A stretch of 64,000 nt of DNA from Candidatus Zixiibacteriota bacterium (GTDB lineage Bacteria > Zixibacteria > MSB-5A5 > GN15 > JACZUZ01), in assembly GCA_024280775.1 (NCBI GenBank), contig JAJRPM010000013.1, forward strand, positions 186,001 to 250,000, read 5' to 3'. Positions 5,892 to 63,173 of the stretch are shown here, in pieces. Positions within the stretch are counted from its first letter, which is position 1. The number at the start of each line of letters is the position of its first letter. Made by a program: the position numbers and the translations under genes. Under the pieces are notes generated by a model that did not search any database, had not been told where the DNA came from, and was given only the letters and a program-made list of their open reading frames with translations.

Positions 5892-6500
5892 CTATTGAGC
5901 CGGAGGTGGTGGTGGATTCGCTAAGGGTGTTGGGCCTACATGATCATCAGCAAACGGCCCTAAATCTAAGAGAGCGGCTGTACCTAAGAGCAGGCTGAGA
6001 GCTGCAGCGCCAAACCTAGATGACTTTCTTTTCCAAAAACTACGAGGCGGATTGGCGACAAGTCTCGCTTCTAAATAGATTGTTCGGAGCCGAGGAAATT
6101 CATCAAGTATTCTACTTTGCGTAAGCCTTTGAGTTGGGCGCGCTTCAAGCATATTTACCATACTAGCGAAAGCCAAAGAGTCAGAAAGCGTAGAATCGCT
6201 TACATTGATGACGTACGTATAAGCTAGCAATTCAAAAATGACCGCTCTTGTTTCAGCTTTCTTTACCAATCGACCTGAAACAAAATATTCTAAGGAATCG
6301 ACAAACATTGCAATAGCAATAGAGTCAGCGTCACCTCGACTTAGTTTGTCAGATATTACTGAGGCGTACGATGCAGCATCCTCCTCCACATTTTCACCAG
6401 CCCAAGTGGCCTGCAATTGTGTGGTAAGCATGACGAATCCAAAAGCTATAAAGCAGACGAATAGTCGCCGATGATAAGTCATAGATGGAAGACTTGACAT
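5892..6500 (-). CDS. Small membrane protein coupled to the caspase gene
   Basis: The 202-residue protein has an N-terminal hydrophobic segment (about 12-33, signal peptide or anchor), a mainly helical soluble middle, a basic stretch near FWKRKSSR, a second hydrophobic helix (AALSLLLGTAALL, about 168-181) and a proline-rich tail. I do not recognise a family. The start is decided by the TAATG overlap: its ATG shares one base with the caspase stop, implying translational coupling. That makes it a likely partner, inhibitor or anchor of the caspase-like protein, which is inference only. Confidence 0.65.
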   Translation of the reverse strand: MSSLPSMTYHRRLFVCFIAFGFVMLTTQLQATWAGENVEEDAASYASVISDKLSRGDADSIAIAMFVDSLEYFVSGRLVKKAETRAVIFELLAYTYVINVSDSTLSDSLAFASMVNMLEARPTQRLTQSRILDEFPRLRTIYLEARLVANPPRSFWKRKSSRFGAAALSLLLGTAALLDLGPFADDHVGPTPLANPPPPPAQ

Positions 6501-8101
6501 TAGCGGTTTTTTCCATTGCTGTCGGCCAATGTAAGCACTAATCTATTTGTACCTGGCTCTAAATCTACGATTGTCCCTGACTCGACAAACGGAAAAGACT
6601 TTCCGCCCAGAGATATGCTCTTAATAATTACATTTGCGCCAAATACTGTTTGCCCTACTCCAATGTTCACCAAGTATTGGCCTGGCGGAATAGAATTCAA
6701 CCCGCTGAACATCCCTATTTTTTCGGGGAATCCGTTAATCTCAAACGAAAACTTAGATCTTCGTAGGTGCTTAGGCGAGGATTCACTTATGGCAAATCTT
6801 ACATTCGCAGAACCTATTTGAATATCAGAGTTTTGGCGACCAACATCTACTATTGAAGCGTTGTTTACAAAGATGATACTGCTATCATTCAGCGGATTTC
6901 TTCGCGTGAGAGTCCGAACCGAATGCTCCCCTGGAGTTATCTCTACGTAACTGTTCGATTCTACAACTGCATCATCGATTAGCACATGAGTGTTGGCCGG
7001 TGCGTTGATGAACACTCTAATTTGACCATCGGCAGAGAACCACTCTCGAAGAATCGGTATATCGGGCAAGTTCTTTGCCGACTCTGCTAGAAAAAGAAAT
7101 GTTCCAGTGTATACATCCTCACGGAGATGACTGATTTGCGGATCAGGAGCCACAGGCAGGTCTCGGTCTCTCGCCAACTTTTGCACCAGGCTCGACGCGG
7201 ACATATAGATTTGTTCAATGTTGAGCATACCTGAATTGGTTAGATTCGTAAGCCCAGTGACAGTTTTCAAGAGTGAATATGTAAACAAGCTGTAGGTCTT
7301 GCTATCGTCGCCTGTAATGCTGTATGTTTTTTGAAGTCCCCGACCAGCGGTGAGAAGAATGCGACTGCCATTACCGTCCAGAGAATTGACTATTTGTGTT
7401 CGGTCATCTCTTCCCAGCCACTTTTCAGTATTAAGTCCCGAGGCGCAACAATCGACAATAAAAAGCATATGCTTATTCTTGTTGTGCCTGCTCCACTCTT
7501 TGACATCGGAGATCCGGATAACATCTAGGACATAGTCGTCCGGCTTTGCTCGGCCTAAAACCATATGGCCACCATTCATGTCAATTCCGTGACCTGAAAA
7601 ATAGAACAACAACCGATCTTCTGAGCCAAGAAGATTACGGAATTTGTTTGACATATAGTCGCCGATGAGATCTTTAGTAGCAACCTCATTGGTAGCCACA
7701 AATACTTCATCAAATCCGCCACTTCCAAGCAAGAAATTTGTCATTGCTTCAATATCGTTATAGACGAAAGGCAGGTTGGGGAAGGCTGGATCTTCATAAT
7801 TACTTACACCAACAAGAAATGCAACACTCCTTCCGTTAGGCAGAGGCGTTGATTCACTAATCGTTCCACCGTAGAGGGATTCCATCAGTGAGAAAAAACG
7901 TGGCTTGCTTGATTGTTCTCCACTACGTTGCCAGACCACAACACCGTCATCAAGAACCGTAGATGTGAATTCTTTATTGGCTAAGGCTACTTGAGTGAGT
8001 GTCTCGGATTCGACATTCCCCCCAGCCATAATGAAGATTATGGTAATTACAAATATTAGATTCTTCAAAAGAGACTCTATTGTATGAATACCGATGTTCA
8101 T
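6500..8101 (-). CDS. Secreted caspase-family (C14, metacaspase-like) protease
   Basis: The protein has 533 residues. A hydrophobic N-terminal segment (about 10-27) looks like a signal peptide or membrane anchor. A caspase-fold domain covers about 90-340: the beta-strand RSVAFLVGVSNY, then FYFSGHG with candidate catalytic His171, then FIVDCCASG with candidate catalytic Cys219 aligned to the metacaspase D-x-C-x-S-G motif. The His/Cys dyad is intact. C-terminal to it lies a PEGA-like beta domain (about 360-400, INAPANTHVLIDD) and a further beta-rich region. Family members cleave after basic or acidic residues; specificity is not readable here. It is followed by a coupled small membrane-protein gene and a large surface protein gene on the same strand, so a cell-envelope role is likely. 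Confidence 0.85.
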   Translation of the reverse strand: MNIGIHTIESLLKNLIFVITIIFIMAGGNVESETLTQVALANKEFTSTVLDDGVVVWQRSGEQSSKPRFFSLMESLYGGTISESTPLPNGRSVAFLVGVSNYEDPAFPNLPFVYNDIEAMTNFLLGSGGFDEVFVATNEVATKDLIGDYMSNKFRNLLGSEDRLLFYFSGHGIDMNGGHMVLGRAKPDDYVLDVIRISDVKEWSRHNKNKHMLFIVDCCASGLNTEKWLGRDDRTQIVNSLDGNGSRILLTAGRGLQKTYSITGDDSKTYSLFTYSLLKTVTGLTNLTNSGMLNIEQIYMSASSLVQKLARDRDLPVAPDPQISHLREDVYTGTFLFLAESAKNLPDIPILREWFSADGQIRVFINAPANTHVLIDDAVVESNSYVEITPGEHSVRTLTRRNPLNDSSIIFVNNASIVDVGRQNSDIQIGSANVRFAISESSPKHLRRSKFSFEINGFPEKIGMFSGLNSIPPGQYLVNIGVGQTVFGANVIIKSISLGGKSFPFVESGTIVDLEPGTNRLVLTLADSNGKNR

Positions 8102-15528: not shown

Positions 15529-18500
15529 ATGAAAAACCTCTCTCGTACTACTTTTAGAACAATCCTAACCAGCGTAACGTTCCTCGCCCTTTTGGTCGGC
15601 GTGAACGCTAATGCTGTTGTAAGAGTTGTTTCAACATCCCCCGGCCCCGGTGAGTTTGGCTCACTTGGAGCCGCGGTAGCCGCATCCAATGGAGCAGGCT
15701 TGGCCGGTGATAGCATCCGTGTCATGCCTGGTGTCTACGATGAGGCTGGTATTGCCGTAACTGTAGCGGGACTGTCCATTCAAGGAATGGGCGCCTTAGC
15801 ATCAGATGTTGTTTTCAGCAATGCCACAGCTCCGGGAACAGGCACTCTGATTGATTGGAGTGGAACTTCCGGCGGTAGCATGGACAACATGACAATCACC
15901 GGATACGATGACGGTGTTTCAGCCCCTGGCACTGCCACTGGCTTTAGCGCCACTGGTCTAGTTTTGATTGCCAATGCAGCAGACGGTCTGGATATGAGAC
16001 TTTTTGCTAGCTCTCTTACTGGTAACACTGCGCATAGCAACGGCGGAAGCGGTATTTTGCTTCGTACTGCTGCTGGCGGAGCTAGCACAGTTGCGGCCAA
16101 CTGCCTTTATAACAACGGCGTTGGACCGACTGACAACGAGGCTAGTAATATCTGGTCTGGAAACTACTACGGTGGTTCAGATTGTGTTTCCCCATTCCCG
16201 ATCTTGGGAACTGGAGCTCTAAGTGATTTGGCCCCGTCCTGCAACGAGAACGAAGTTGCTGGTCCAGTCTCACATGAAGTCCTCGCAACTGAAACGTATA
16301 CCTTTACGTATACCTCTGTCGGTTGTATTGATGGCTCAAAAGGTCTGGCCGCTTTTGACTTTACTGCAACTTTCGACCCTGCAGTATTCGAGTATGTCCC
16401 TGGATCAGCCATTGATGGCAATGCGATTCCGGGACAGTTGCCGATGCAGGTCGATGAGTCGCTAGCATCTTCCGGTTTGATCCGTCTTTCCGCCGCCAGT
16501 GGTGGTGGTTTGGACATTCTGACTGGAACCGCAATGCTTGCCTCGATTGACCTCAAAGCGATAGATGACGCCGCCGCTTCAACAATTTCAGTGGCTTCTG
16601 ACTATCGTGATGGCGCCAATAATGCATGGCCTGTGGCTGGTGTTTCCTTATCAGCGGCTACTGTTGATATTACAGCCCCTACCTGTGCAAATCTGACACC
16701 TAACAATCCAGCTGGAGATGATGTCTATTCAGAAGGCGGACCTGGTGTTGTTGCAGATCACATCAATCTTGACGTATCCATTGATATTGCTGATGATTTC
16801 GACAGTCGTCGCATCATTTACAGAATCGATGGTGGACCGCTTCAGCACTTTGCGTGGAGCGCAGGTGGAGCAGGACCCGAAACACTCGGCCCTGTGAACA
16901 TCCCGCTAGGCGCTATAAGCGACGGTCCTCACACGTTGAAGATGTTTTCTGAGGATGTTGCTTTGAACCATGGTGACACGTGTTCGTACAGTTTCATGAT
17001 CGATCGCACCGCTCCGGTGGATCCGACAATTACATTGAAGGACGCCGATTGTAGCACGATTGACCCGAACTCCACGAACGATTCTAACATCGTTATCGAC
17101 ATCGTCGGTGACGGTACAGAAGTAACCATGGAGCTTTGGAATGGCGGTTGGCTCCCGAGTGAGGCGTTTGACGGCGTCGATCATCCGTTTGACATGGGTG
17201 GTGTGCTTGGAGCTAGAACCATATTTGTTCGCACAGCTGACAAATATGGAAACCGTAGTGGTCAGATTTCTGACAACATTGATTTGGATCTAGCTGCTCC
17301 TGTAGCCGTTGGTCCGATGACAATAGCTCCGGATCCGACATCCGATGGCGCGGTTTCTTTCACAATCGCAGGCCACGGTGGCGCTGATGCAGTTGAATGG
17401 TTAGCCTCAGAGACTGAAGCTGATCTTGACGACTGTAACAATGCTAATTGGGCTCCGAAAGCCGCTTTGACTATGGCTTTCCAACTCGCCTCTGGCGACG
17501 GCACACATACTATTTACTTCGCCTCACGTGACAAAGCTGGTAACGCCAGTAATCACTTGAGCGCCACAGTAGAAGTTGACTCTGATGCCGGCGCCGCTCC
17601 TGCGGTCGTCGTCTCGGCCACAACTGGCGAAGATTGTAGTGATAGTTGGGCTGTCGATGTTGAGGTGACTTACTCTCAGGCAGACGCAGCGTTCTTGAAT
17701 TTGACAACCAACGATGGAGCCGTAGTAGTTACAGTTCCGGCAACCGGCTCTCCGCAGATGGTGTCATATACATATGACGCTACTGATCGTGTTTGTGATT
17801 CAATGAACACTGTCAACGTCACAGTTACTGACGGCTCTTCACCAGCGAACGTAAGCGCCGCTGGTTCAGACGCTATCTTTGTCGATTGTGGCGTTCCGGC
17901 TGTTACCGCTGTTGTACTCAATAACGGTGATGCCTGGTCACAGAGCGCAACAGTAACCGTTCAGATCACTGGATCAGCGGATGGTGTTATGGTCAAGCTC
18001 GCTGAGCTTTGTGCTAGCGTTCCGGCCGCCACCGCAGTTCCGATTGACATGACTGGCGGCACCGGTAGCGTGACCTTTACGTTCCCGACTCCGGTTTGTG
18101 GCGCGAATTTCGTAGCTGTACAGTTGATCGATTGTGCAGGACGGATGTCTGTTATCGGTTGTAGCGCTGGTGTGGACTTTGATGACATCAAGGTTGACGA
18201 AGTCGATCCGCTGTTGGACAGCCTTGTCATTGACGCTGGCGCCGCTTTGAGCGTCGACACATCAGTTTCCGTTAAGCTTTTTGCTTCGGATAACTGTGGT
18301 CCGCTCGAGATGCGTCTCTCTGAAGATGCTTCCTTTGGTGGTGGCTTAGATCCGTTTGTTGCTTTCGTCGCAGTGAGTACTTTTGAAATCGCTGCTGGTG
18401 ATGGAACACACACAGTCTACGCCGAGGTGCGTGATGCTTCAAGTCGTTTGAGCGCAGCTGCTTCTGACGGTATTGATGTAGATCAAACTGATCCGGCGGT

Positions 18501-20115
18501 CGATGTAGGACAGTTGTTTATTCTCTCAGGTAATTCCGCCGCAGCAGCAGGATTTACGAATTCTGCCAGCGGTAATTCCTTGGAAGGTATCAATGGTCCT
18601 GCCGATGTGGCAACTATGCTCATCCGAGACTCTGTTACTAACGCCAACTTAACTGCTGGCTGGGTTCCGTTTGATGCAGCATCGTTTGCTTTGGCGGCCC
18701 TAGCTCCGCTTGGCGCTGAGCCAACAACCCTGCATGTACGTATCATTCTTACGGATAATGCTGGAAACGTTGGTCCATGGACAGATGTTTCAATTGGCTT
18801 TGCCTCTTCGTTTGCTAGTAGTGGCGCTTCAGCAATTCCTCCGGGAGCTGCAAGTGGCGTACCGGGTGGTAGCATGAAAATGTCATGGCCCGCGCAAACT
18901 GGCGCTCAGAACTACTTAGTTAAGTATGATCGCTGGGGCAATTATCCGTTCTTCAATACACCGGTTCCGACACCTCCTGCTACACTTTCTAGTGGGTTCC
19001 CGTTAGCGGGCCCCATTTCCGTAGCCGCTGGTTCCGATCCGGTAACGTTGAACTTTGACGCTTCAATTGATGGCACACCTGACATCTATGCAGTCTCAAT
19101 CTGGACTGTAGATATGTATGGTAACGCAACCCTGATACCGAACATCGATATACTTGAAACTAATTATATCCTTGGTGATGGCAAAGGCGCCGCCAATGAC
19201 TTCGACAATAAATTATCATTCGTCGATGAATTTGGTTTGCTCGCTGATGCTATGTTTACGGTCAACGGTGATGCTGGCTACAATCCTTATATGGATATTG
19301 GTCCGACACTTGGTGGTGACGCCAAGAATTATCCGATTCCGGATGATGCGGTTGAATTTGAAGATCTCGTAATCTTCGCTATCAACTTTGCGGCGGATCC
19401 TGCGGCCAAGACTGTGCCGGGAAGTCGCTCGTTTGCGTCATCCATCACAGTTGGAGCCTCTGTGCCAACGATGCTTGCTGAGCCGGGTTCAAAGATCCGT
19501 GTTCCGATAAGCATTTCAGAGCCGAATGCTGCGAAGGGAATGCATCTTGTTTTTGATTATGATAGAACAAGTCTGCGTTTAGTCGAAGTCAAAGCAGGCA
19601 AAATGTTTGAAACTGCCGCAGGCAAGACATTCTTCGCAGTGCGTCCTAATGTAGACAACATTGACATCAATGCTGTGTCTTTGGATGCGCCTACATATAA
19701 AGACAACGAAGTTGCAGTTCTCACTTTCGAAGCTATCACTACAACAGTAGTCGAATTGACCGATGTTGAATTGACAGTTCGCGATGCTGAGAATCAAAGC
19801 ATCGAAGTTGCCTTTAGCTCAACCCCAACTAGTGGCGGTTCGAGCATTCTTCCGAACACATTCGCTTTGGGTCAGAATTATCCTAACCCATTCAACCCGT
19901 CAACAAAGATTAACCTCTCGCTTCCGACAGCAAGTGAATACTCAATAGAGATATTCAATACTCTCGGACAAAGAGTGAAATCTTTTGAGGGCTATAGCGA
20001 CGCCGGTGTTGTATCGGTAGAGTGGAATGCTAGTGACAATGCTAGTGGCGTGTATTTCTATCGCGTCAAAGCTGGCGCTTTCGTTTCAACAAAGAAAATG
20101 GTACTACTCAAGTAA
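15529..20115 (+). CDS. 1528-aa modular surface protein (beta-helix, cohesin-like, Ig-like, dockerin-like, sorting tail)
   Basis: A signal peptide (residues 1-28, ending VNANA) is followed by a right-handed beta-helix-like stretch (about 30-215). A cohesin-like domain lies at about 240-375 (AAFDFTATFDPAVFEYVPG). Ig-like units of roughly 100 residues follow to about 1060, each starting near a [VD]-D-x-[TD]-x-P motif (DRTAPVDP, VDEVDPLLD, VDQTDPAVD). A dockerin-like Asp-rich segment is at about 1213-1290 and a second cohesin-like domain at about 1310-1430 (MHLVFDYDRTSLRLVEV). The sorting/FlgD-like tail runs from about 1440 to the end (NYPNPFNPST, SGVYFYRVKAG, KKMVLLK). It is probably exported and displayed on the cell surface; no catalytic motif is seen. 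A strong terminator follows. Confidence 0.8.
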   Translation: MKNLSRTTFRTILTSVTFLALLVGVNANAVVRVVSTSPGPGEFGSLGAAVAASNGAGLAGDSIRVMPGVYDEAGIAVTVAGLSIQGMGALASDVVFSNATAPGTGTLIDWSGTSGGSMDNMTITGYDDGVSAPGTATGFSATGLVLIANAADGLDMRLFASSLTGNTAHSNGGSGILLRTAAGGASTVAANCLYNNGVGPTDNEASNIWSGNYYGGSDCVSPFPILGTGALSDLAPSCNENEVAGPVSHEVLATETYTFTYTSVGCIDGSKGLAAFDFTATFDPAVFEYVPGSAIDGNAIPGQLPMQVDESLASSGLIRLSAASGGGLDILTGTAMLASIDLKAIDDAAASTISVASDYRDGANNAWPVAGVSLSAATVDITAPTCANLTPNNPAGDDVYSEGGPGVVADHINLDVSIDIADDFDSRRIIYRIDGGPLQHFAWSAGGAGPETLGPVNIPLGAISDGPHTLKMFSEDVALNHGDTCSYSFMIDRTAPVDPTITLKDADCSTIDPNSTNDSNIVIDIVGDGTEVTMELWNGGWLPSEAFDGVDHPFDMGGVLGARTIFVRTADKYGNRSGQISDNIDLDLAAPVAVGPMTIAPDPTSDGAVSFTIAGHGGADAVEWLASETEADLDDCNNANWAPKAALTMAFQLASGDGTHTIYFASRDKAGNASNHLSATVEVDSDAGAAPAVVVSATTGEDCSDSWAVDVEVTYSQADAAFLNLTTNDGAVVVTVPATGSPQMVSYTYDATDRVCDSMNTVNVTVTDGSSPANVSAAGSDAIFVDCGVPAVTAVVLNNGDAWSQSATVTVQITGSADGVMVKLAELCASVPAATAVPIDMTGGTGSVTFTFPTPVCGANFVAVQLIDCAGRMSVIGCSAGVDFDDIKVDEVDPLLDSLVIDAGAALSVDTSVSVKLFASDNCGPLEMRLSEDASFGGGLDPFVAFVAVSTFEIAAGDGTHTVYAEVRDASSRLSAAASDGIDVDQTDPAVDVGQLFILSGNSAAAAGFTNSASGNSLEGINGPADVATMLIRDSVTNANLTAGWVPFDAASFALAALAPLGAEPTTLHVRIILTDNAGNVGPWTDVSIGFASSFASSGASAIPPGAASGVPGGSMKMSWPAQTGAQNYLVKYDRWGNYPFFNTPVPTPPATLSSGFPLAGPISVAAGSDPVTLNFDASIDGTPDIYAVSIWTVDMYGNATLIPNIDILETNYILGDGKGAANDFDNKLSFVDEFGLLADAMFTVNGDAGYNPYMDIGPTLGGDAKNYPIPDDAVEFEDLVIFAINFAADPAAKTVPGSRSFASSITVGASVPTMLAEPGSKIRVPISISEPNAAKGMHLVFDYDRTSLRLVEVKAGKMFETAAGKTFFAVRPNVDNIDINAVSLDAPTYKDNEVAVLTFEAITTTVVELTDVELTVRDAENQSIEVAFSSTPTSGGSSILPNTFALGQNYPNPFNPSTKINLSLPTASEYSIEIFNTLGQRVKSFEGYSDAGVVSVEWNASDNASGVYFYRVKAGAFVSTKKMVLLK

Positions 20116-37922: not shown

Positions 37923-38095
37923 TTCAAGCGCCTTATCGTTACACTCCTCTGCGAAATCACAACATGTAGTTATGCCTATTCAAATGAGCTACAATCTGTC
38001 GAGTATGGACCTGTGAATTGATTTATAACACTTTCGATAATCGTTTGTGTATTCGTGGGAGCTTTTCTTTTCGGTGAGATATTGTATATTGTCTT

Positions 38096-38596
38096 ATGAT
38101 GCGTGAGATAATTTGGGCTCCATGGAGATCGGGATTTATTAAGGGAAAACCCGAACCGGGATGTGTGTTCTGTCGTCTCCAGCGAGAGACCGACAAACGT
38201 AAGATTTTGGTTATTGAAACCGGCAAACACAATTTCATTGTCATGAACAAGTTTCCCTACACTTCCGGTCACCTGCTAGTTATTCCCAAAAGACATCTCG
38301 GAACGCTGGAGAAATTAACCACTCCCGAGGCCAATGAGCATTTCAAGTTAGTGCGTTTGGCCGCATCGGCGCTGAAACGCGCGCTGAAGACTGACGGCAT
38401 AAATACCGGCATGAATCTCGGACGAACCGCCGGAGCCGGAGTGTTGCATCATATTCATACGCATTTGGTGCCGCGATGGCAGGGTGACAGCAATTTTATG
38501 CCGGTGATTGGAGAGACAAGAATGATGTCTCTTGATCTCGAACCAATGTATGATGCGCTATGCGCTGAGTTTTTGCGCCTGAAGAAGAAAAAGTAG
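38096..38596 (+). CDS. HIT-family hydrolase (AP4A/nucleotide-binding)
   Basis: The 166-residue protein has the HIT motif HHIHTHLVPRW (H-x-H-x-H) and CVFC in an N-terminal zinc-like site. Relatives hydrolyse dinucleoside polyphosphates or AMP conjugates. The ATG is doubled (MM). No ribosome site is seen, but TATATT (38085-38090) ends five bases before the first ATG. Confidence 0.9.
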   Translation: MMREIIWAPWRSGFIKGKPEPGCVFCRLQRETDKRKILVIETGKHNFIVMNKFPYTSGHLLVIPKRHLGTLEKLTTPEANEHFKLVRLAASALKRALKTDGINTGMNLGRTAGAGVLHHIHTHLVPRWQGDSNFMPVIGETRMMSLDLEPMYDALCAEFLRLKKKK

Positions 38597-38706
38597 TTTT
38601 GCATTACAATTGATTTGAATGCGCTGAATCATTTCTTGAGTAACATCCAACAACTATTGCTTGCGAAGTAGTAAAGCAAGAAAGAATATAAGAGGTAAAG
38701 TAGTTA

Positions 38707-40440
38707 GTGGCTCCCCCTCGGCGAATACCTACTAAAGCGGAATTGTTGCGCTTGCAACGACAATTCAAGACCGATGCGCGTATCGCGGAGCGGCTTGGGA
38801 ATGTCGATCCGTACTTAGTTTCCTATTGGCGCCGCAAACGCAATGTCCCAAACTATAGCGCACCGAAATTTTCCGAGAAGGAAATCGGTGTTCTTTGGGA
38901 GCGTTTCGGTGATGATGACAGGTGTGGCGCGGAGTTAGGAGTTTCTAAGGGCGCGTTCTATAGTTGGCGTCGTCGCTATGGAATCAAAAACAAGCCGGCT
39001 TTTCTAAAGCTGGAACAAATGGAAATTAATTTCCCCGGAGACACCTCGCCGCGATCAATTTCCAACAATCAGGGCATCAGGCCGGCAACTCATAAGCTCA
39101 TTTTCAACAAGAGCGCTGATAGCGCCGCCAATAGCTCCAATGGGAACGCAATTCCGATTACTCCGGACCTGGTAGCCATCAACAACCCCACCGCGACTGC
39201 TATTAGTTATTATTTTGCGACAAACAAGAAACCTGCTCTGGCGGTAGAGCGCCTGGCGCTAATGCTCAAGGACGGCAAATTCTCACCCGATGCGGCAGGT
39301 CACCTGAACAATTCACTTTGCCCAGGCTCGGTTCATCAATGGGCAAAAAAGATGCAGGTGCGTCACGCATATAGTGAAGTGGACGGCAACATGTGGAATC
39401 GACTCTACTTCTCTGGTGGCGCTTTGCCGGGCCAGTTGGTTTTATGTCAGCGTGGGTTTGAAAGATTCGCCGGAGCGATCGGCGCTTTGGGATGGTGGAG
39501 TTCTGATGAAGATTTGGTGAGGACTTTTTCGACCGGAACAGCACATATCACCACACCAAAGGTTGTCCGAGTCAACATCACTGGGAAGCGCTATGCTCCG
39601 ATTTATGCTGTTGATATTCTGATAAACCTAGCGGCGAACCTAGCAGAAAAGGATTACTCCCAGAGAGCGCTGGAGTATGCCGGTTCAGCGATGATGAGTA
39701 TGCCGGTAGCTGACAGGCAGGCGTTATGCGCAATTGGTTCTTTGATAGATGTGCGCTCAGCTCTAACACCCTGTGACACAGTTACAGTACGTCACACAGC
39801 CACGCTGGGGAGTTGGAAGTTTGATCAAGTTTCTCCAGATCGTGACGCGGAGTTTGTTGATTCATATCAATTCAATATTGAGTCAGTAAAACCGATGGTT
39901 GCAATAAAACGCGCTCTAGATGGAGTCGGCGAATTCTCTCAGCAATCACAATTGTCATTATCACAAGAAACAACTGATTCATCGTCCTCCGAGAATAATA
40001 CTAACACCAAGAAACATTCCGTTACCTTTCACACTGCGCAGGAAGTCACAGGCTTAGGCGTGGATGTGGTATTCATAGGCGGCTCCCCCGGTGGAGACTA
40101 TGAATCTCTGCGCAAAGCCGCCGAGGCGTTGCATGGGAAGAAAGTCGCCGATGAGGTTCGGTTGCTGGTCTCACCGACGTCCCGGGAAGTGTACCTTCGC
40201 TCGCTTAAGCGAGGAATCCTCCGTCAGCTGATTGAAGCGGGAGCTGTGATTCTCAATCCGGGGGTTGATTCAACCTCTCTAGGTCTATTTGGTATTAGTC
40301 CCGCTGCAAAAGTTGCCACTACCTCTGTTGAGCCCTTGTTTTCCTCTGCCGAAAATACTGCGGACCGCTATGTAGTATCTCCTCTGACTGCCGCTATCTC
40401 CGCTGTCAATGGTCATTTGCTTGACCCGCGCGGTAATTGA
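38707..40440 (+). CDS. HTH-aconitase/LeuC fusion lacking Fe-S and DSH residues
   Basis: The 577-residue protein starts at a GTG with an AGAGG site upstream. Residues 11-50 and 56-97 look like two helix-turn-helix units (IAERLGNVDPYLVSYWRRK; CGAELGVSKGAFYSWRRRYG). From about 150 to the end it follows the large subunit of 3-isopropylmalate dehydratase/aconitase in order: PGQLVLCQRGFERFAGAIGAL (242-261), VVRVNITGK, ALEYAGSAMMSMPVADRQAL (321-340), VDVVFIGGSPGGD (452-464), VSPTSREV, NPGVDSTSLGL (517-527) and YVVSPLTAAISAVNGH (555-570). Where LeuC has GDSHT there is CQRGF, where it has IGSCTN the Cys is Ser460, and both Cys of GCSMC are absent. It therefore cannot hold the usual 4Fe-4S cluster. A DNA-binding regulator using the fold for sensing or dimerisation is the best guess. 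Confidence 0.78.
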   Translation: MAPPRRIPTKAELLRLQRQFKTDARIAERLGNVDPYLVSYWRRKRNVPNYSAPKFSEKEIGVLWERFGDDDRCGAELGVSKGAFYSWRRRYGIKNKPAFLKLEQMEINFPGDTSPRSISNNQGIRPATHKLIFNKSADSAANSSNGNAIPITPDLVAINNPTATAISYYFATNKKPALAVERLALMLKDGKFSPDAAGHLNNSLCPGSVHQWAKKMQVRHAYSEVDGNMWNRLYFSGGALPGQLVLCQRGFERFAGAIGALGWWSSDEDLVRTFSTGTAHITTPKVVRVNITGKRYAPIYAVDILINLAANLAEKDYSQRALEYAGSAMMSMPVADRQALCAIGSLIDVRSALTPCDTVTVRHTATLGSWKFDQVSPDRDAEFVDSYQFNIESVKPMVAIKRALDGVGEFSQQSQLSLSQETTDSSSSENNTNTKKHSVTFHTAQEVTGLGVDVVFIGGSPGGDYESLRKAAEALHGKKVADEVRLLVSPTSREVYLRSLKRGILRQLIEAGAVILNPGVDSTSLGLFGISPAAKVATTSVEPLFSSAENTADRYVVSPLTAAISAVNGHLLDPRGN

Positions 40441-40634: not shown

Positions 40635-41060
40635 ATGGGAAACAGAATCATCAGAAATATGTTGGGGGTTACGATTTCATTGGTGTTCTTCGGTTTCATG
40701 ATCTCAAAGATGATGACATCTGGTGTAGCCCCGCCGAGCATGATGTCCCGACCGGACTATGTTCCTGAAAGCGCTGTGCAACGAATCGCCGCGAGAATTT
40801 GGTTTGATTGTCAACCTGCAGAAAGCAACCAAGCGAATCATTTCAAGGTGACTATCTATGATGGTGACACAGCGAGCGTACGTATGCGGAAAGAGCTATT
40901 CGATAATCCTGAAACAGTTGAGAACGGCACATTCATGGTATCAGGTCCGCCAGTTTCCGCCGAAGAACTACGAGAGCTTTTCAGACTCTACGATGGAGAG
41001 ATGATATATCTCAAGAACGGTGAGACTATGACACCAGTCTATGATCTGTCGTATCGCTGA
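40635..41060 (+). CDS. Small membrane-anchored hypothetical protein
   Basis: The 141-residue protein starts after a good AGGAGA site. One N-terminal membrane helix (about 8-30) precedes a soluble domain with alternating strands (HFKVTIYDGDTASVRM; LRELFRLYDGEMIYL). No family recognised. It stands alone between the aconitase-like gene and a long gap. Confidence 0.65.
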   Translation: MGNRIIRNMLGVTISLVFFGFMISKMMTSGVAPPSMMSRPDYVPESAVQRIAARIWFDCQPAESNQANHFKVTIYDGDTASVRMRKELFDNPETVENGTFMVSGPPVSAEELRELFRLYDGEMIYLKNGETMTPVYDLSYR

Positions 41061-41304
41061 CCTACACCAGGAGATTATGCATAGCGGCAAGCACCACCAC
41101 CTACACCACCAGCAGAAAAAATGTCTTGACAAGAAATCTGCCTTTAGCTATCATTTGTATGTAGCTGGCGCGCCCCCTCTGGAGAGTTCAAAAGGCCGCC
41201 AGTTGTCCCCACCTACCCCCACCTGTCCTTAGAGACTCTTTGGACATTTCAATACCATCCGCCAAACTTGAATTTGCATGACTTCATTTGCGCTTTAACT
41301 ATCT

Positions 41305-41346
41305 TCTTGTATTGGGTCCTCTTGTATTGGGTCTTCTTGTATTAGA
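41305..41346. repeat. 15-base tandem repeat, nearly three copies
   Basis: TCTTGTATTGGGTCC, TCTTGTATTGGGTCT and a shortened TCTTGTATTAGA lie end to end. Confidence 0.7.
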
Positions 41347-41581
41347 TAGTGATTTCAGCAAAGTCGTTATTGCAGAACATCTTCATTCGCTTAGACACCG
41401 GGAAATCAATTAATTGCCAGTGCAGTTATGCGCTGTTCTTAGAGGATTGTAACGTGTCTTCTGTGATTGGGTTGCTTGAATAGACCCTCCTTTTCGCGGT
41501 GACACTGAAATATTAACCTTTTGACGCAGTTTCGTGAGCCCCCGGGCTAACGCTAAAGTAGAAATCAATCTCTCCCTCAGG

Positions 41582-41604
41582 AAGGAGGAGCTTTTATGAA
41601 GTAA
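41582..41604 (+). promoter_or_regulatory. Strong ribosome site before a start-Lys-stop codon triplet
   Basis: AAGGAGGAG (41582-41590) sits five bases before ATG AAG TAA (41596-41604). The reading frame continues after the stop as LFVVVFAHCHK, which would resemble a signal peptide if the stop were a mutation. Confidence 0.45.
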
Positions 41605-42076
41605 TTGTTTGTGGTGGTGTTTGCTCACTGTCACAAGCGGGATGGGCCGCCGTCACAGTTCTTATGGAAATTCAACTGTGATTGGAATTCGGTTCATCCG
41701 TCGGTTGGTCGCGAACATGTTGCGAGACATAATTCTACTCGGCCCAGAAGACTGTTTCACGCATGTTACTAGCCTGTAATCTGATTGCACACGGACCATA
41801 ACTCAATATTGTCTTCGCACGCAATATTTGATTTCGGAACTAGTGGAGACGATGACGCAGATCGAAACGCGGCCAACCCTTAATCCCGCCAAATACAAAA
41901 GGATTTGTTCTATTTAGTAAATAGCGGGAGTTGTAAACGAAGTTTGGAATGCTCTTGGCGACGAGAGGCGCCGGTTGTATTCTGTGACCTCGTAAGTTCT
42001 ATAGTGAATTGAATAGTGACGCAAGGGTTTCTTGAACGTCACTTAAGATTCGCGCTTTGATCCGCAAATCGAAGCT

Positions 42077-42111
42077 CCACCGGGACCAGTTTGGTCCCGG
42101 TGGTTTTTTTT
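42077..42111 (+). terminator. Strong rho-independent terminator
   Basis: Perfect 12-bp stem CCACCGGGACCA/TGGTCCCGGTGG (42077-42088, 42092-42103) with a tight loop and eight T bases. No recognised gene precedes it within 1 kb on this strand. Confidence 0.85.
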
Positions 42112-42445
42112 GCTCTCCGCAATTCATCCTCCTGGCGCTACCTGAATCCTCTAACCAACTTCCCTACTGTATGGGACACATCCTATATATCAGGCTCTAG
42201 TTAAGGACTCCGCTCATGGAACCCCCGGTAACACCCGCAACGTATCCTCGTTTATCATAAGCGTTTAGACTTCATAAGACTCTTGCGAGTTACTCTTGGC
42301 GCCGCTCTTGCAAAGTCTCTCGATGTCACACCAAATCCTGGCCTATGCGGTTAGAAGGCCGGGCGAAACAGGTGGACTAGATAACAACTGGAATAACGAC
42401 GCTGTACAAGTGACAACTTCAGGAGCTGGATAGAGGAGGCGCCGA

Positions 42446-42691
42446 ATGCGGGTAAAGTTTACATTGACGATGGACGATGTGACAGTGGCGGATCATGATA
42501 TTGATTGCATCATAATTGACTGGATTGACGACGTAAACGAACAAGAAGTCGTGGCGTTGTCACATCGCTGGATATCCACGCAGAACTTCCTCTCGCAGAG
42601 CATGGAAGGCCTCTCGCGCGTTGGTGAGTCATCACTAACTATTGAGCCACTTGACATCGATCAACTCGGAGCTGATTCTCCCCAATTATGA
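42446..42691 (+). CDS. Small hypothetical acidic protein
   Basis: The 81-residue protein follows a very good GAGGAGG ribosome site. It is acidic (DDVTVADHDIDCIIIDWIDDVNEQE) with no signal peptide. No family recognised. Confidence 0.6.
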   Translation: MRVKFTLTMDDVTVADHDIDCIIIDWIDDVNEQEVVALSHRWISTQNFLSQSMEGLSRVGESSLTIEPLDIDQLGADSPQL

Positions 42692-42746
42692 TTCTCTGCA
42701 ATTGTAACACACATAATTGCCGATACAAGTGATAGAGACAGAAATA

Positions 42747-42798
42747 CAGTCGAGTGACACATCAACTAAATGTGATGAGTCGCCCGACTGTATCTTTG
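42747..42798. repeat. Inverted repeat after the small acidic gene
   Basis: ATACAGTCG and CGACTGTAT pair perfectly over 9 bp with an inner imperfect GACACATC/GTGATGAGTC stem. Only a short T stretch follows, so terminator function is uncertain. Confidence 0.4.
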
Positions 42799-42943
42799 TA
42801 ATTTGAAGGTCTGTCCCATTGTGGAACACATTGGTCTTTACGAGAAAGGCAAAACTATTCCTTGCCCGCTATGGGACAGAAGTGTATCATAGGTGAAAGT
42901 AGTTTAATCGCAGGAATCATAGAAAGCGATATTTGAGGTGGTA

Positions 42944-43366
42944 ATGTTTGAGGCAGTTGTAAATGGAACGCTGATGCTATTCAGAGGGATAGTGACTACA
43001 CTCGCGGATACTAGCCGAGGGTTGTATAGCGCTCTTATTTCAGCTGATTCTCCTGTGGTAGATAAAGTCGCTGAGTTTGCCGGTATTGATTCCTCGGTTT
43101 TGGGACAATACTTTGAGGGCGCCAAAACATATATCCTGGAGAATTTTGGTGAATCAGGACTCTATGCGACATACATAGCGCTAGCGGCCATTACCGTCTT
43201 TGTGCTCTCCAAACTGTTCAAGTTGTCATTTGCTATTTTGAAACTAGTTGTTGTTCCCTCGGTAGCTTTGGCGTTTGTCGCCACATTCTTTTTACCACAG
43301 AGTTTCTTCCATTTTCTTCCTGTCACAGTGTCACTCTTCTCTGTCTTGCTATTGTTCCGCGGTTAA
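42944..43366 (+). CDS. Small membrane protein, unknown family
   Basis: The ATG at 42944 follows GAGGTGG; a GTG at 42938 is in frame. The 140-residue protein has an N-terminal amphipathic region (VVNGTLMLFRGIVTTLADT) and C-terminal hydrophobic helices (LYATYIALAAITVFVLSKLF; LKLVVVPSVALAFVATFF). No family recognised. Confidence 0.6.
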   Translation: MFEAVVNGTLMLFRGIVTTLADTSRGLYSALISADSPVVDKVAEFAGIDSSVLGQYFEGAKTYILENFGESGLYATYIALAAITVFVLSKLFKLSFAILKLVVVPSVALAFVATFFLPQSFFHFLPVTVSLFSVLLLFRG

Positions 43367-43632
43367 CTTCGTCACGATACTATTTATTTCCCATTATTCA
43401 GATTCACCGTCACTATCTCTGTTTGTCCTATAGTCATGGGGCAAATCCAATAATCTCTCACCTTCGGTGTTACCTGCAAAACATTGCTCTCTGCTAGTAT
43501 CCTCTTATCTGTCAGTAGCTTGTGATTCTCCAATAGAGCTGGCGCCGCGCTTGCCCATTAGTAGTTCGATTACATCTGAAACACGTCGCTTCAACTCAAC
43601 GCTATGGAGCGCCAGATGGCCTGAAAGACTAT

Positions 43633-44286
43633 ATGGAGAACACAGCAATGGCAACGAAGCATTTGACCGACACAAAAAAGACACAAAAGAAAAGCGCGAT
43701 TCCCACCGGCAAGAGAGGGCGTGTTAGAAAAAGAGCGACAGCAGATAACGCCAACCTTGACGACGCCAAAAACTCAGAATCTCCAGCCGATGTTTCAAGT
43801 GTTTGTGTTAGTTGCGGCGGGGAGTTGCTCTTTATTGATGAAGCGCGGCTTTGCCCTAAGTGTAACACCGAAGCCTCTATCATAATGATAAAGGAGCTTT
43901 CGGCGGTTGTGATGGAACGCGCGGAATTGGACTCAGGTTTTATTGAATGCCCCGGGGCTACACTCTTTGATCTGAAGACTGGTGAGCCAATTGAGGGCGC
44001 TGTTTTTGGAGATGACACAGCCGCACCGAACTCTACCGCAGATGGGGCAGTTGAAAGCTATACTGTAAAGCATGTAAGGTGGCCCGTATTTCCTCCGGGG
44101 CATAAAAAACGCCGGATGATTCCAACTGAAGCCTACGGAAAGATACGTCGCTGTCGCGCCTGCCAGGACTACACTGTTCGTATGCGCCGTAGAGAAGGCG
44201 CCGATTTTTGCGCTCCCAGCGCAAAATTTCCACACAGAAAGCGTCTCAAAAGCGTCGATTTAGTCAGCCATCGACAGACAATTTAA
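43633..44286 (+). CDS. Zinc-ribbon protein with basic N-terminus
   Basis: The 217-residue protein has a Lys/Arg-rich N-terminal 40 residues and a zinc-ribbon-like CVSCGGELLFIDEARLCPKC (58-77). A second CRAC lies near residue 178 in a basic C-terminal part (RRMIPTEAYGKIRRCRACQ). No enzymatic motif. The basic ends suggest nucleic-acid or ribosome binding, which is inference. Start alternatives exist at the Met six residues in. Confidence 0.6.
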   Translation: MENTAMATKHLTDTKKTQKKSAIPTGKRGRVRKRATADNANLDDAKNSESPADVSSVCVSCGGELLFIDEARLCPKCNTEASIIMIKELSAVVMERAELDSGFIECPGATLFDLKTGEPIEGAVFGDDTAAPNSTADGAVESYTVKHVRWPVFPPGHKKRRMIPTEAYGKIRRCRACQDYTVRMRRREGADFCAPSAKFPHRKRLKSVDLVSHRQTI

Positions 44287-60268: not shown

Positions 60269-61433
60269 CCGCCAAACGATAAATCTCCGCATAGCGCCGA
60301 GCAACAGCCGGACCTGTGAAACGCTCTATCGCATTGACCTGCGCCGCATCGGCTATGCGTCTTGTTTCATCAGCGTCACTAAGCGCTTTCTGCATAACAT
60401 CCGCCAATGATTCAGCATTATCAACTTCTGCCAGCAAGCCTGTCTCTCTGTTTTCGATAATATCCGTGATACCGCCTGAGTTTACACCTACTGGCATAGC
60501 GCCGCACAACGCCCCCTCCACCAACGTCAATCCGAATCCCTCCTTGAATGAATTCAGCACAACAGCCTGCGCGCGGGAGTAAACTTTGCGTAACTCCGCA
60601 TGCGGAACCGGCCCGGAAATCGTCACTATCCCATTCAATTCATACTCATTTATTTTCGAGACAATCTCATCTTCAAGCGGTCCGGCTCCGTAGATTTCCA
60701 ATGAGTAATCAACACCGCGCTGATGTAATAGACGACAAGCTTCAATCAAAACCCCAACTCGTTTTTGTTCGGTAAACCGGGTCACTGAAACCAGTAACTT
60801 AGTATCTCGTGTGACAGTTTCATCAACGTAGAACAGCGACTCGTCATTTGGCAGGGGGCATACTGCAATTTTCTCTGCGTATGCGGGAAACGCATCTCGG
60901 GCAATAGACTGCAAGTATGAGCTAACCACACTCCATGATTTCGCGCGCTTCAATGCATCACCTGCGAACCAGCGCGCCACAGCATATTGAGAAAGTAGGC
61001 GCACATCGGTTCCATGCGAATGTATCACCAAAGGGATATTCGCCGTTTTTGATACTTGCGAGCCAACAGGCGCCGACGGTATTGCCCAGTGCGCGGCAAT
61101 CAAATCGAAATTGTTGTCTTGTGTCAGTTGCTCAGCGCTTTGGCGCATCGCTCGCATAAACCGTCGAAAACGCAATAGCCCCCCCGGGCTGAGAAGTTGC
61201 TTGTGCATATTGCCTCGATAGGCGAAAGTCTCTTTGTCATCGGTGTCATAACGAAATCTATTGACCGGGATACCGTCAAGAGTTTCTGATTCTGGCAAAC
61301 CTGTGTCATGCGGCGCCAGAACAGTGACATTGATGTTTTCCTCTTTTAACTGGCGCGCCAGCAAATGCAGGAAAACACCGGAATAATCCCGGTCGTGGCG
61401 TGGGTAGTTATGCGTTAGAAAAAGGACGTTCAT
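60261..61433 (-). CDS. GT4-type glycosyltransferase
   Basis: The 390-residue protein has a GT-B fold: N-terminal NVLFLTHNYPRHDRDYSGVFLHLL, the middle IHSHGTDVRL and a C-terminal nucleotide-sugar domain with SVTRFTEQKRVGVLIEA, GAGPLEDEI and the E-x7-E motif in FKEGFGLTLVEGALCG. It transfers a sugar from a nucleotide sugar to a lipid or polymer in the cytosolic leaflet. Acceptor is unknown. The gene is divergent from the squalene-synthase-like gene. Confidence 0.93.
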   Translation of the reverse strand: MNVLFLTHNYPRHDRDYSGVFLHLLARQLKEENINVTVLAPHDTGLPESETLDGIPVNRFRYDTDDKETFAYRGNMHKQLLSPGGLLRFRRFMRAMRQSAEQLTQDNNFDLIAAHWAIPSAPVGSQVSKTANIPLVIHSHGTDVRLLSQYAVARWFAGDALKRAKSWSVVSSYLQSIARDAFPAYAEKIAVCPLPNDESLFYVDETVTRDTKLLVSVTRFTEQKRVGVLIEACRLLHQRGVDYSLEIYGAGPLEDEIVSKINEYELNGIVTISGPVPHAELRKVYSRAQAVVLNSFKEGFGLTLVEGALCGAMPVGVNSGGITDIIENRETGLLAEVDNAESLADVMQKALSDADETRRIADAAQVNAIERFTGPAVARRYAEIYRLAVG

Positions 61434-61567
61434 GAGATTCTTTATCAGATGCGTGGTATTTTAAAAGTAATTCCACAGGAGGCATAATACCGCGCCAGAC
61501 CCCAGTGAGAAACATCAATCGAACCTACACTCTTGCTATCGCCGTAAAATTATCCTACGATTAGGTC

Positions 61568-62563
61568 ATGGACCAACCCGCAACAGACCACACTCCACAA
61601 TTGAATGCGCTCGAATCTGAGCTCAAAAACCCGATTTTGGATATTGCCGCCTCATTTTGGGATGAGGAGCGCTATCGGGCTTTCAGGGTGTGTTACCAAT
61701 CAATGCGCCAATTGGATGATATTGTCGATGACCTAAAAATCGCCGGCCTAGCTGATAACCCCGATTTGCGCTCCGAAGTTAAGGATCAGCTAGAGGAAGT
61801 CATAGCCCTGCTTCAAAGCGACAGCCCAGTTCCTGCGGAACTTCAGGAAGTTGCGGGACTCAATGAGCTACGTGAGACTATGAAGCGCTTCAAAATCCCG
61901 ATGGCCCCTTGGCTGAAGCTTGCGAAAGCGATGGAGTTTGACCTGGAGCATTCTGGATTCGATTCGTTCCTGCAATTCGCACGCTATGCCAAAGGCGCGG
62001 CAGTGGCCCCGGCTTCGGTTTTTATTCACCTGATAGGAATATCGCGCAACAAAGACGAATACCACCCCGCTCCGATAGATATTTTCAAATCAGCCAGACC
62101 ACTGGCGATGTTTTCTTATCTGACCCATATCTTGCGAGACTTCCGTCAGGACGCCGCAGAAGGGCTGGAGTATTTCCCGCTGACAGCCCGAGAGAGTTTT
62201 GGTGTCTCTGCAGATAACTGGAACGCTTCGGCAGAGGGAATGCAAACATCAGGCTTTACCTCTATGGTACAACACTATCACTCACTAGCAGACAGATACC
62301 GTCTGAAATCAGTCGTGGAAAAAAATCCTGTCTATCCATTTCTGAATGAGTACACCCGCTTTAGTCTGCATTTGATTTGGGATTTGTATTCTCAAATACA
62401 TGAATCTATCTCCAAAGCGAACTTCGTACTAGATCCGAAATTGACACATCCAAACAAAGATGATATTTCCCAACGAGTAATGAAACTAGCTGAGAAAATG
62501 AAAGTCTCAGATGAAACTCTTATACGTGGTTTGAATCGAGTTGGTCTCGGAGCTGGCAACTAG
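61568..62563 (+). CDS. Squalene/phytoene synthase-family protein
   Basis: The 331-residue protein has both Asp-rich motifs of trans-prenyl condensing enzymes: DDIVDD at 50-55 and DFRQD at 191-195, with FRVCYQSMRQLDDI and ILRDFRQDAAEG around them. It would condense two prenyl diphosphates (farnesyl or geranylgeranyl) to squalene- or phytoene-type products. No hopanoid or carotenoid genes are adjacent, so the product is open. Confidence 0.9.
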   Translation: MDQPATDHTPQLNALESELKNPILDIAASFWDEERYRAFRVCYQSMRQLDDIVDDLKIAGLADNPDLRSEVKDQLEEVIALLQSDSPVPAELQEVAGLNELRETMKRFKIPMAPWLKLAKAMEFDLEHSGFDSFLQFARYAKGAAVAPASVFIHLIGISRNKDEYHPAPIDIFKSARPLAMFSYLTHILRDFRQDAAEGLEYFPLTARESFGVSADNWNASAEGMQTSGFTSMVQHYHSLADRYRLKSVVEKNPVYPFLNEYTRFSLHLIWDLYSQIHESISKANFVLDPKLTHPNKDDISQRVMKLAEKMKVSDETLIRGLNRVGLGAGN

Positions 62564-62573
62564 CAACGTAGCG

Positions 62574-62927
62574 CTAGTAGGAGCAATCACATATTCCACC
62601 AAAGAGACAAAGCGGACAGCTAACTCGCTCATCAGCGTCCAGCTTCATTTTTGCGATGCCACAATTGGGACATAAGGCTCCTATTTCAAAGGACGGCACA
62701 GCGACCACATTGCATTCACCGTCTTGATTCTCTGGATGCCGATTCAATTCTGACAGAGACTTATAGTCGCTCAAGTCCGGGCCGCATCCAGCTCCCCAGC
62801 CTGTGGGATACCAACGCCCTGGAGCATCCTCGGAGAATACATCAGAATGACCGGGCTTTCCCGGCCAAAGAGAATCTGACGTTTCTCGGGTAGATAGACT
62901 TCTCTCATGCAGGTTCCGTCTCGTCAT
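62574..62927 (-). CDS. Possible small zinc-ribbon protein
   Basis: The 117-residue frame ends with CPNCGIAKMKLDADERVSC and then PLCLFGGICDC, a convincing Cys-pair ribbon. The N-terminal part has no recognisable content and the start lacks a ribosome site, so the true start may be internal. It is convergent with the squalene-synthase-like gene. Confidence 0.5.
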   Translation of the reverse strand: MTRRNLHERSLSTRETSDSLWPGKPGHSDVFSEDAPGRWYPTGWGAGCGPDLSDYKSLSELNRHPENQDGECNVVAVPSFEIGALCPNCGIAKMKLDADERVSCPLCLFGGICDCSY

Positions 62928-63173
62928 ACACTAAATATCGGTAGTTTCAAGCTTGAGCGCTATCAAATCCGGCACGAGCAGGGAATCCCACAAGCCATTA
63001 CCTCTCAATCGATTAGTCTTTCTGGGCTGGGCAATATCCATTCTCTTTCGAATTGAGTTGCTCTACTGCTGGCAAAAACCAATCTTTTGGCAACTGTCCC
63101 CCGATTGTATAAGGATTTGCAGCGGGATTATGATTACGAGAATCAATAGCGCCTTCTAATGGAGAAAACAGAA

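Follow-up and report, generated by a model that had tools for sequence, protein, structure and literature searches.

In a 64,000-nucleotide stretch of DNA from Candidatus Zixiibacteriota bacterium, referred to here as the window, one gene joins two tandem helix-turn-helix (HTH) units to a LeuC-type fold that has lost its active site. We read its product, with a probability of about two in three, as a pseudoenzyme that regulates transcription and descends from a LeuC-type hydro-lyase carrying a DNA-binding head. Because the active site is gone and the head is nearly unchanged, an enzyme appears to have been converted to a gene regulator. The gene and its parts, in window coordinates, are these:

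38707..40440, plus strand: HTH-HTH-LeuC fusion gene; GTG start, 577-aa open reading frame
38734..38838, plus strand: HTH unit 1, residues ~10-44; helices 10-20, 23-29 and 35-44 in the model
38875..38979, plus strand: HTH unit 2, residues ~57-91; helices 57-67, 70-77 and 81-91 in the model; HTH_Tnp_1/HTH_23 matches
38992..39039, plus strand: linker (residues ~96-111) carrying a conserved KPAFLKLEQxE motif; low model confidence
39085..40437, plus strand: LeuC-fold pseudoenzyme domain, residues ~127-577 (Foldseek 4kp1 MJ0499, PF00330)
39445..39459, plus strand: CQRGF replacing GDSHT, residues 247-251
39922..40014, plus strand: low-confidence insertion in the LeuC domain, residues 406-436, pLDDT <50; found in the window's family
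40084..40086, plus strand: Ser460 replacing the first cluster Cys (SCTN), by alignment
40261..40281, plus strand: GVDSTSL (519-525) replacing GCxxCxG; second and third cluster Cys gone
40327..40344, plus strand: VEPLFS (541-546) replacing RNFxGR of active members; both substrate Arg gone

A candidate Shine-Dalgarno sequence, GAGG at 38692-38695, lies 5' of the GTG start. Residues 216-569 of the product match Pfam model PF00330 (Aconitase) with E=3.1e-37, which passes the cut-off. The top NCBIfam match, NF001614 for the LeuC/HacA subfamily, reaches 1.6e-52 but, at 178.6 bits, stays far short of its cut-off of 385, and the protein misses every other NCBIfam cut-off as well. Its top sequence matches in the PDB are LeuC MJ0499, the best chain, and homoaconitase MJ1003. 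An AlphaFold model built from 19 relatives (mean pLDDT 75) matches LeuC MJ0499 (4kp1) in Foldseek with E=7.8e-35 and a TM-score, on the target, of 0.85; aconitases, IRP1 and AcnX follow. A preliminary description, made from the DNA letters, had claimed LeuC-like blocks in order over the full length and had proposed structure prediction as a check for the aconitase fold; all blocks are indeed present in order, and the model has the LeuC fold.

None of ten key active-site residues, Cys included, remains in the window protein. The three [4Fe-4S] Cys positions are occupied by S460, V520 and T523, the Asp-His pair has given way to K188 and D189, and both Arg of NRNFxGR are gone (V541, S546). The preliminary description had already recognized CQRGF at the place of GDSHT, Ser460 at the SCTN Cys and the absence of both GCSMC Cys at 519-525; alignment agrees on all three, with GVDST at 519-523. 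As the substrate pocket is gone too, the window protein is unlikely to sense the old metabolite.

The architecture is near-universal in the phylum. A profile search with the HTH module found the fusion in 120 of 132 Zixibacteria genomes, and in 76 of the 78 good ones, with one copy in each; in almost all of the 120 genomes the match opens a long reading frame. Recurrence in 119-120 genomes cannot be put down to chance. Scanning contigs with patterns taken from the window sequence, to which divergent relatives would be invisible, gave 20 relatives, labelled as Zixibacteria or, in a few cases, as Calditrichota, FCB group or plain bacterium; several of those with labels other than Zixibacteria are contigs assigned to the window's phylum in the whole-genome search. 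At one locus (L003 5001-6605, genome G058) the fusion frame breaks off some 268 codons in, although the remainder still matches, through either an assembly error or a true frameshift.

We aligned 118 scorable fusions and, from the same phylum, 19 LeuC-type proteins that stand alone, and scored ten active-site residues in each. All ten are present in 19 of 19 standalone controls, and all ten are likewise kept in 11 of 11 fusions belonging to families f6, f12, f13 and f14 (motifs GTDSHT, GSCTNG, GCGPC and NRNFKGR); with every active-site residue in place, members of the intact fusion families score 580 bits for the LeuC subfamily. A complete active site occurs in none of the other 107 scorable fusions. 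The three Cys survive in twelve fusions that have lost catalytic residues: six of f4, four of f16 and one each of f15 and f2. Among dead members the active-site positions vary freely, and the most decayed families, f5, f18 and f19, are still LeuC-like (NF001614, 1e-13 to 3e-18), with a less certain residue-level alignment. In the window's own family, each of the four members has zero of three cluster Cys. The loss is thus no degeneration of the window copy only, a case the preliminary description had allowed for: it is common to all four members of that family and to 107 of the 118 scorable fusions. The suggestion that the HTH and the Cys loss might be conserved together fails, in that the HTH is universal, yet 11 genomes have the complete site and 12 have all the Cys. 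A universal HTH together with intact active sites in four families indicates that the HTH-bearing enzyme came first and that catalysis was lost later. Since a complete site is unlikely to have been regained, we take the intact form to be ancestral.

In a LeuC tree with the 19 standalone proteins as outgroup, computed after leaving out row L104, a mis-translated open reading frame, and the longest branches, the fusions form a single clade apart from standalone LeuC with support 99; one fusion event is the simplest reading. The mean path to the common ancestor of the fusions is 0.29 for intact against 1.25 for dead members. Dead members fall on one side of a branch with support 91. On a tree of HIT (the product of the adjacent gene, below) and HTH, built without the LeuC columns, changes in activity number two and those in the Cys triad ten. 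By these sequence comparisons, Cys loss is a repeated event, and loss of catalysis one that occurred once or a few times; long-branch effects may have had some influence on the trees.

Selection has acted differently on the two halves. In three intact pairs, dN for HTH versus LeuC is 0.054 versus 0.015, 0.136 versus 0.099 and 0.127 versus 0.121, whereas in dead f2 pairs HTH dN lies roughly 3 to 24 times below LeuC dN (0.008 versus 0.193, for example). Mean HTH identity is 84% in dead f2 versus 64% in intact members, mean LeuC identity is 47% versus 74%, and HIT identity, used as a yardstick, is 66% versus 59%. These contrasts in dN and identity imply that loss of catalysis went with a move of constraint from the enzyme to the HTH. 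The dead LeuC part nevertheless shows dN/dS of about 0.05-0.2 where dS is measurable, that is, purifying selection and no decay; saturation of many dS values makes dN the more reliable of the two. Eight Arg (294, 295, 297, 361, 362, 367, 469 and 506) are newly conserved in dead f2 proteins. We considered a basic patch gained as a DNA grip and rejected it, because the LeuC domain, for all the specific Arg gained, has no higher net charge.

The N-terminal module, residues 1-105, consists of two repeats of a tri-helical unit, each with a third helix of W-R-R-K type, and is modeled as six helices in two tri-helical units with core pLDDT above 90. Single sequences score weakly, the window sequence alone matching HTH_23 over residues 75-91 with E=7e-4. 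Of 31 diverse relatives, however, 29 match HTH_Tnp_1 (best 9.9e-6) and 26 match HTH_23 in Pfam, and Y40, W41 and K44 of HTH unit 1 are invariant across the 31 rows. The model and these matches establish the two N-terminal HTH-like units that were proposed at the outset. Foldseek found no significant single structural match for the pair (best E=0.09), and its top neighbours, non-significant, are mostly DNA-binding HTH proteins. Marginal and implausible matches were all that a PDB sequence search with the HTH profile returned, and a plasmid search with the HTH consensus returned no match. DNA binding by the module is accordingly a prediction, for which both family and fold type speak strongly.

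Word counts found no phylum-wide operator 5' of the HIT gene, although the HTH is nearly invariant; there are family-level candidates only. The window's candidate is weak:

37989..38004, plus strand: 16-mer CTACAATCTGTCGAGT, weak operator candidate 5' of the HIT gene; the sister species has the same sequence

At 0-1 mismatches, CTACAATCTGTCGAGT is unique in both genomes (two species of the window's genus). In 12 genomes of family f4, a near-conserved A-AAACC block abuts the operon's -35 element and is almost unique genome-wide, the pattern having at most two matches per genome and a reversed control pattern none in 10 genomes. Both patterns were read off these same promoters and match there by construction, so that they inform only by being rare elsewhere. 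Perfect DnaA-box-like sequences, TGTGGATAA and TTATCCACA, occur at loci L003 and L020 just 5' of or overlapping the HIT start, TTATCCACA overlapping the ATG. DnaA boxes 5' of HIT were rejected as a general operator, being confined to a few f2 genomes.

The near-invariance of the module in f2, with no phylum-wide operator, would also fit a conserved macromolecular target. The N-terminal module might bind RNA, RNA polymerase or the ribosome, making the protein a post-transcriptional or polymerase-associated regulator in the manner of IRP1 and bacterial apo-aconitases; RNA binding is known for apo-proteins of the aconitase superfamily (M. tuberculosis apo-AcnA, PMC7527780; IRP1, PMC6884552). We consider this unlikely, as the units score as the DNA-binding families HTH_Tnp_1 and HTH_23 and fold as two tri-helical HTH, and as most of the closest Foldseek neighbours, though non-significant, bind DNA.

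The gene preceding the fusion is a nearly constant neighbour:

38096..38596, plus strand: HIT-family gene for a 166-aa protein of Ap4A phosphorylase/ATP adenylyltransferase type; it leads the conserved pair

Its product matches Pfam HIT with 1.1e-16 and PDB entries 3ano and 6af2 with E~2e-26, and the HxHxH His triad is intact both in it and in 52 of 52 aligned HIT copies. The HIT gene lies directly upstream of the fusion in 116 of 119 genomes, the HIT stop and the fusion start mostly overlapping by 4 bp; in the window they are 110 bp apart. Such frequent overlap, combined with a HIT active site that is intact in all aligned copies, might mean that the LeuC fold serves as a scaffold that binds and controls the co-translated HIT enzyme, with the HTH tethering the complex to DNA. 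However, HIT adjoins intact LeuC as well, so the pairing is older than the loss of catalysis, and we hold a scaffold role to be quite improbable.

On the other side of the fusion, the region downstream of it (window 40635-44286) contains genes that are kept in the sister species; four open reading frames scanned there (40635, 42446, 42938 and 43633) match no Pfam family. Elsewhere the window encodes a protein with a caspase-like domain (6500-8101, minus strand; Peptidase_C14, 1.3e-11) and a secreted protein of 1528 aa that has both a cohesin domain and a Por secretion tail (15529-20115, plus strand).

Directly downstream of intact fusions stands LeuD with the motif GCGSSREQA. In families f4, f15 and f16, LeuD remains in some genomes with that motif destroyed (GIGDNSLPA, GGGADCGQA, GICHESCPG, GNEIGDLSS, GCGSNDQRS). 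There is none near the fusion in the window, and it is gone from the locus in most other genomes too; PF00694 is matched just twice in the window's genome, whose two further aconitase-type genes (919 and 682 aa) both include a domain 4 by sequence. Family f10 is an exception: at L072 (G094) and L151 (G095), a fully dead LeuC domain is followed by LeuD with intact GCGSSREQA. This LeuD may by now serve a different enzyme.

Purifying selection on the LeuC domain and the eight new conserved Arg of f2 might be taken to mean that the protein is still an enzyme, with altered, cluster-free chemistry, and that the HTH merely localises or autoregulates it. We judge this very improbable: the Asp-His pair, DSH and both substrate Arg went along with the Cys, these sites vary freely among dead members, and LeuD, the partner in catalysis, has either disappeared or degenerated. 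Plain decay in the window lineage, with the reading frame surviving by chance, would explain the loss of all active-site residues but is dismissed as scarcely credible, given a frame open in nearly all genomes, strong purifying selection and a near-universal single copy; phylum-wide presence and purifying selection likewise rule out a lineage-specific pseudogene.

For the reaction originally catalyzed, a role of the intact fusions in leucine biosynthesis was not supported, since LeuA (TIGR00973) went undetected in all seven f12-f14 genomes looked at and, in the f6 genome G007, it is a separate LeuC that adjoins LeuB. In G109 (L167, 2021-5421), a standalone LeuC-type large subunit, a LeuD-type small subunit and NADP-isocitrate dehydrogenase are encoded together, and this company suggests that the LeuC-type gene is probably part of a two-subunit TCA-cycle aconitase. 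With LeuA undetected, another LeuC beside LeuB and the standalone protein aconitase-like, the fusion enzyme would be a further LeuCD-type hydro-lyase. The window's genome also encodes a 682-aa LeuC-LeuD fused, homoaconitase-like protein (L022; G000:C8 ~60500-63000), whose gene adjoins an isopropylmalate/homocitrate-synthase-like gene.

We picture the conversion of a LeuC-type enzyme into a regulator in four steps, the sequences themselves showing the first three. In an ancestor of the phylum, a tandem pair of HTH units was joined to the large subunit of a hydro-lyase of LeuCD type, the operon being ordered HIT - HTH::LeuC - LeuD. Four families retain the enzyme with all cluster ligands, active-site residues and an intact LeuD. 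Elsewhere catalytic residues, LeuD and Cys (the last repeatedly) were lost, leaving the HTH as the most constrained part. The HTH pair is expected to bind DNA, probably at few sites, its own promoter among them, and the LeuC fold might dimerise or bind an effector and in this way switch DNA binding. The weakest step concerns HIT: translationally coupled, it is a likely functional partner, and on that account a nucleotide signal or a protein contact may have replaced the old substrate. The fullest version, a phylum-wide core regulator whose dead LeuC fold senses a new HIT-linked signal, such as a dinucleoside polyphosphate or other nucleotide, with the intermediates alive in one orthologous gene, is speculative, and we think it unlikely to hold in full.

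By membership the window protein is no LeuC enzyme: it lacks the cluster ligands, the catalytic residues and a LeuD partner, and its family score is too low. With archaeal/HacA-type LeuC (NF001614, TIGR01343, TIGR02086; MJ0499) it shares the fold and the ordered blocks; it differs from these enzymes in having no cluster Cys, catalytic residues or LeuD, and in its two N-terminal HTH units. IRP1 and the bacterial apo-aconitases belong to the same superfamily and likewise regulate in a cluster-less form; the apo-form of M. tuberculosis AcnA binds RNA (PMC7527780), as does IRP1 as an apo-protein (PMC6884552). Those proteins, however, retain their Cys, switch by cluster loss and bind RNA through the enzyme fold itself, whereas binding by the fusion is predicted to run through separate HTH units. 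Judged from its sequence, with the three Cys absent, the window protein is not an IRP-like reversible-cluster switch.

Regulators built from an HTH and an enzyme fold offer a further comparison. ROK repressors combine an HTH with a sugar-kinase fold, and PutA, BirA and NadR are trigger enzymes with a built-in DNA-binding domain. MocR/GabR regulators combine a winged HTH with a PLP aminotransferase fold (PMC6677901). The fusion resembles the MocR and ROK types in having an HTH at one end and an enzyme fold, usually inactive, that would serve as effector domain; it is predicted to work like them without membership in either. Its fold is that of aconitase rather than PLP fold I or sugar kinase, its HTH are two small tandem tri-helical units, it has a HIT partner, and catalytically intact orthologues of the gene still exist. 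The intact fusions are predicted to work as trigger enzymes do, with an enzyme and a DNA-binding head in one chain; by sequence the active site of this chain is intact in 11 relatives and absent from the window protein. No aconitase/LeuC member was found among trigger enzymes, and most fusions, the window protein included, are without catalysis. For the terms used, titles and abstracts of the open-access literature yielded no aconitase-superfamily protein with an HTH, and no match for Zixibacteria combined with aconitase. HTH-plus-enzyme-fold regulators as such are already known (MocR, ROK); the aconitase-superfamily version was not found in the searchable literature. The aconitase superfamily would gain a predicted DNA-binding branch, and an uncultured phylum a candidate core regulator. 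MocR- and ROK-type regulators are usually known only as finished products, whereas here one near-universal orthologous gene presents the complete, the Cys-keeping inactive and the fully dead enzyme together, with LeuD decaying in step and constraint shifting from the enzyme to the DNA-binding half. With living stages side by side, the transition from enzyme to regulator becomes directly testable by comparing members.
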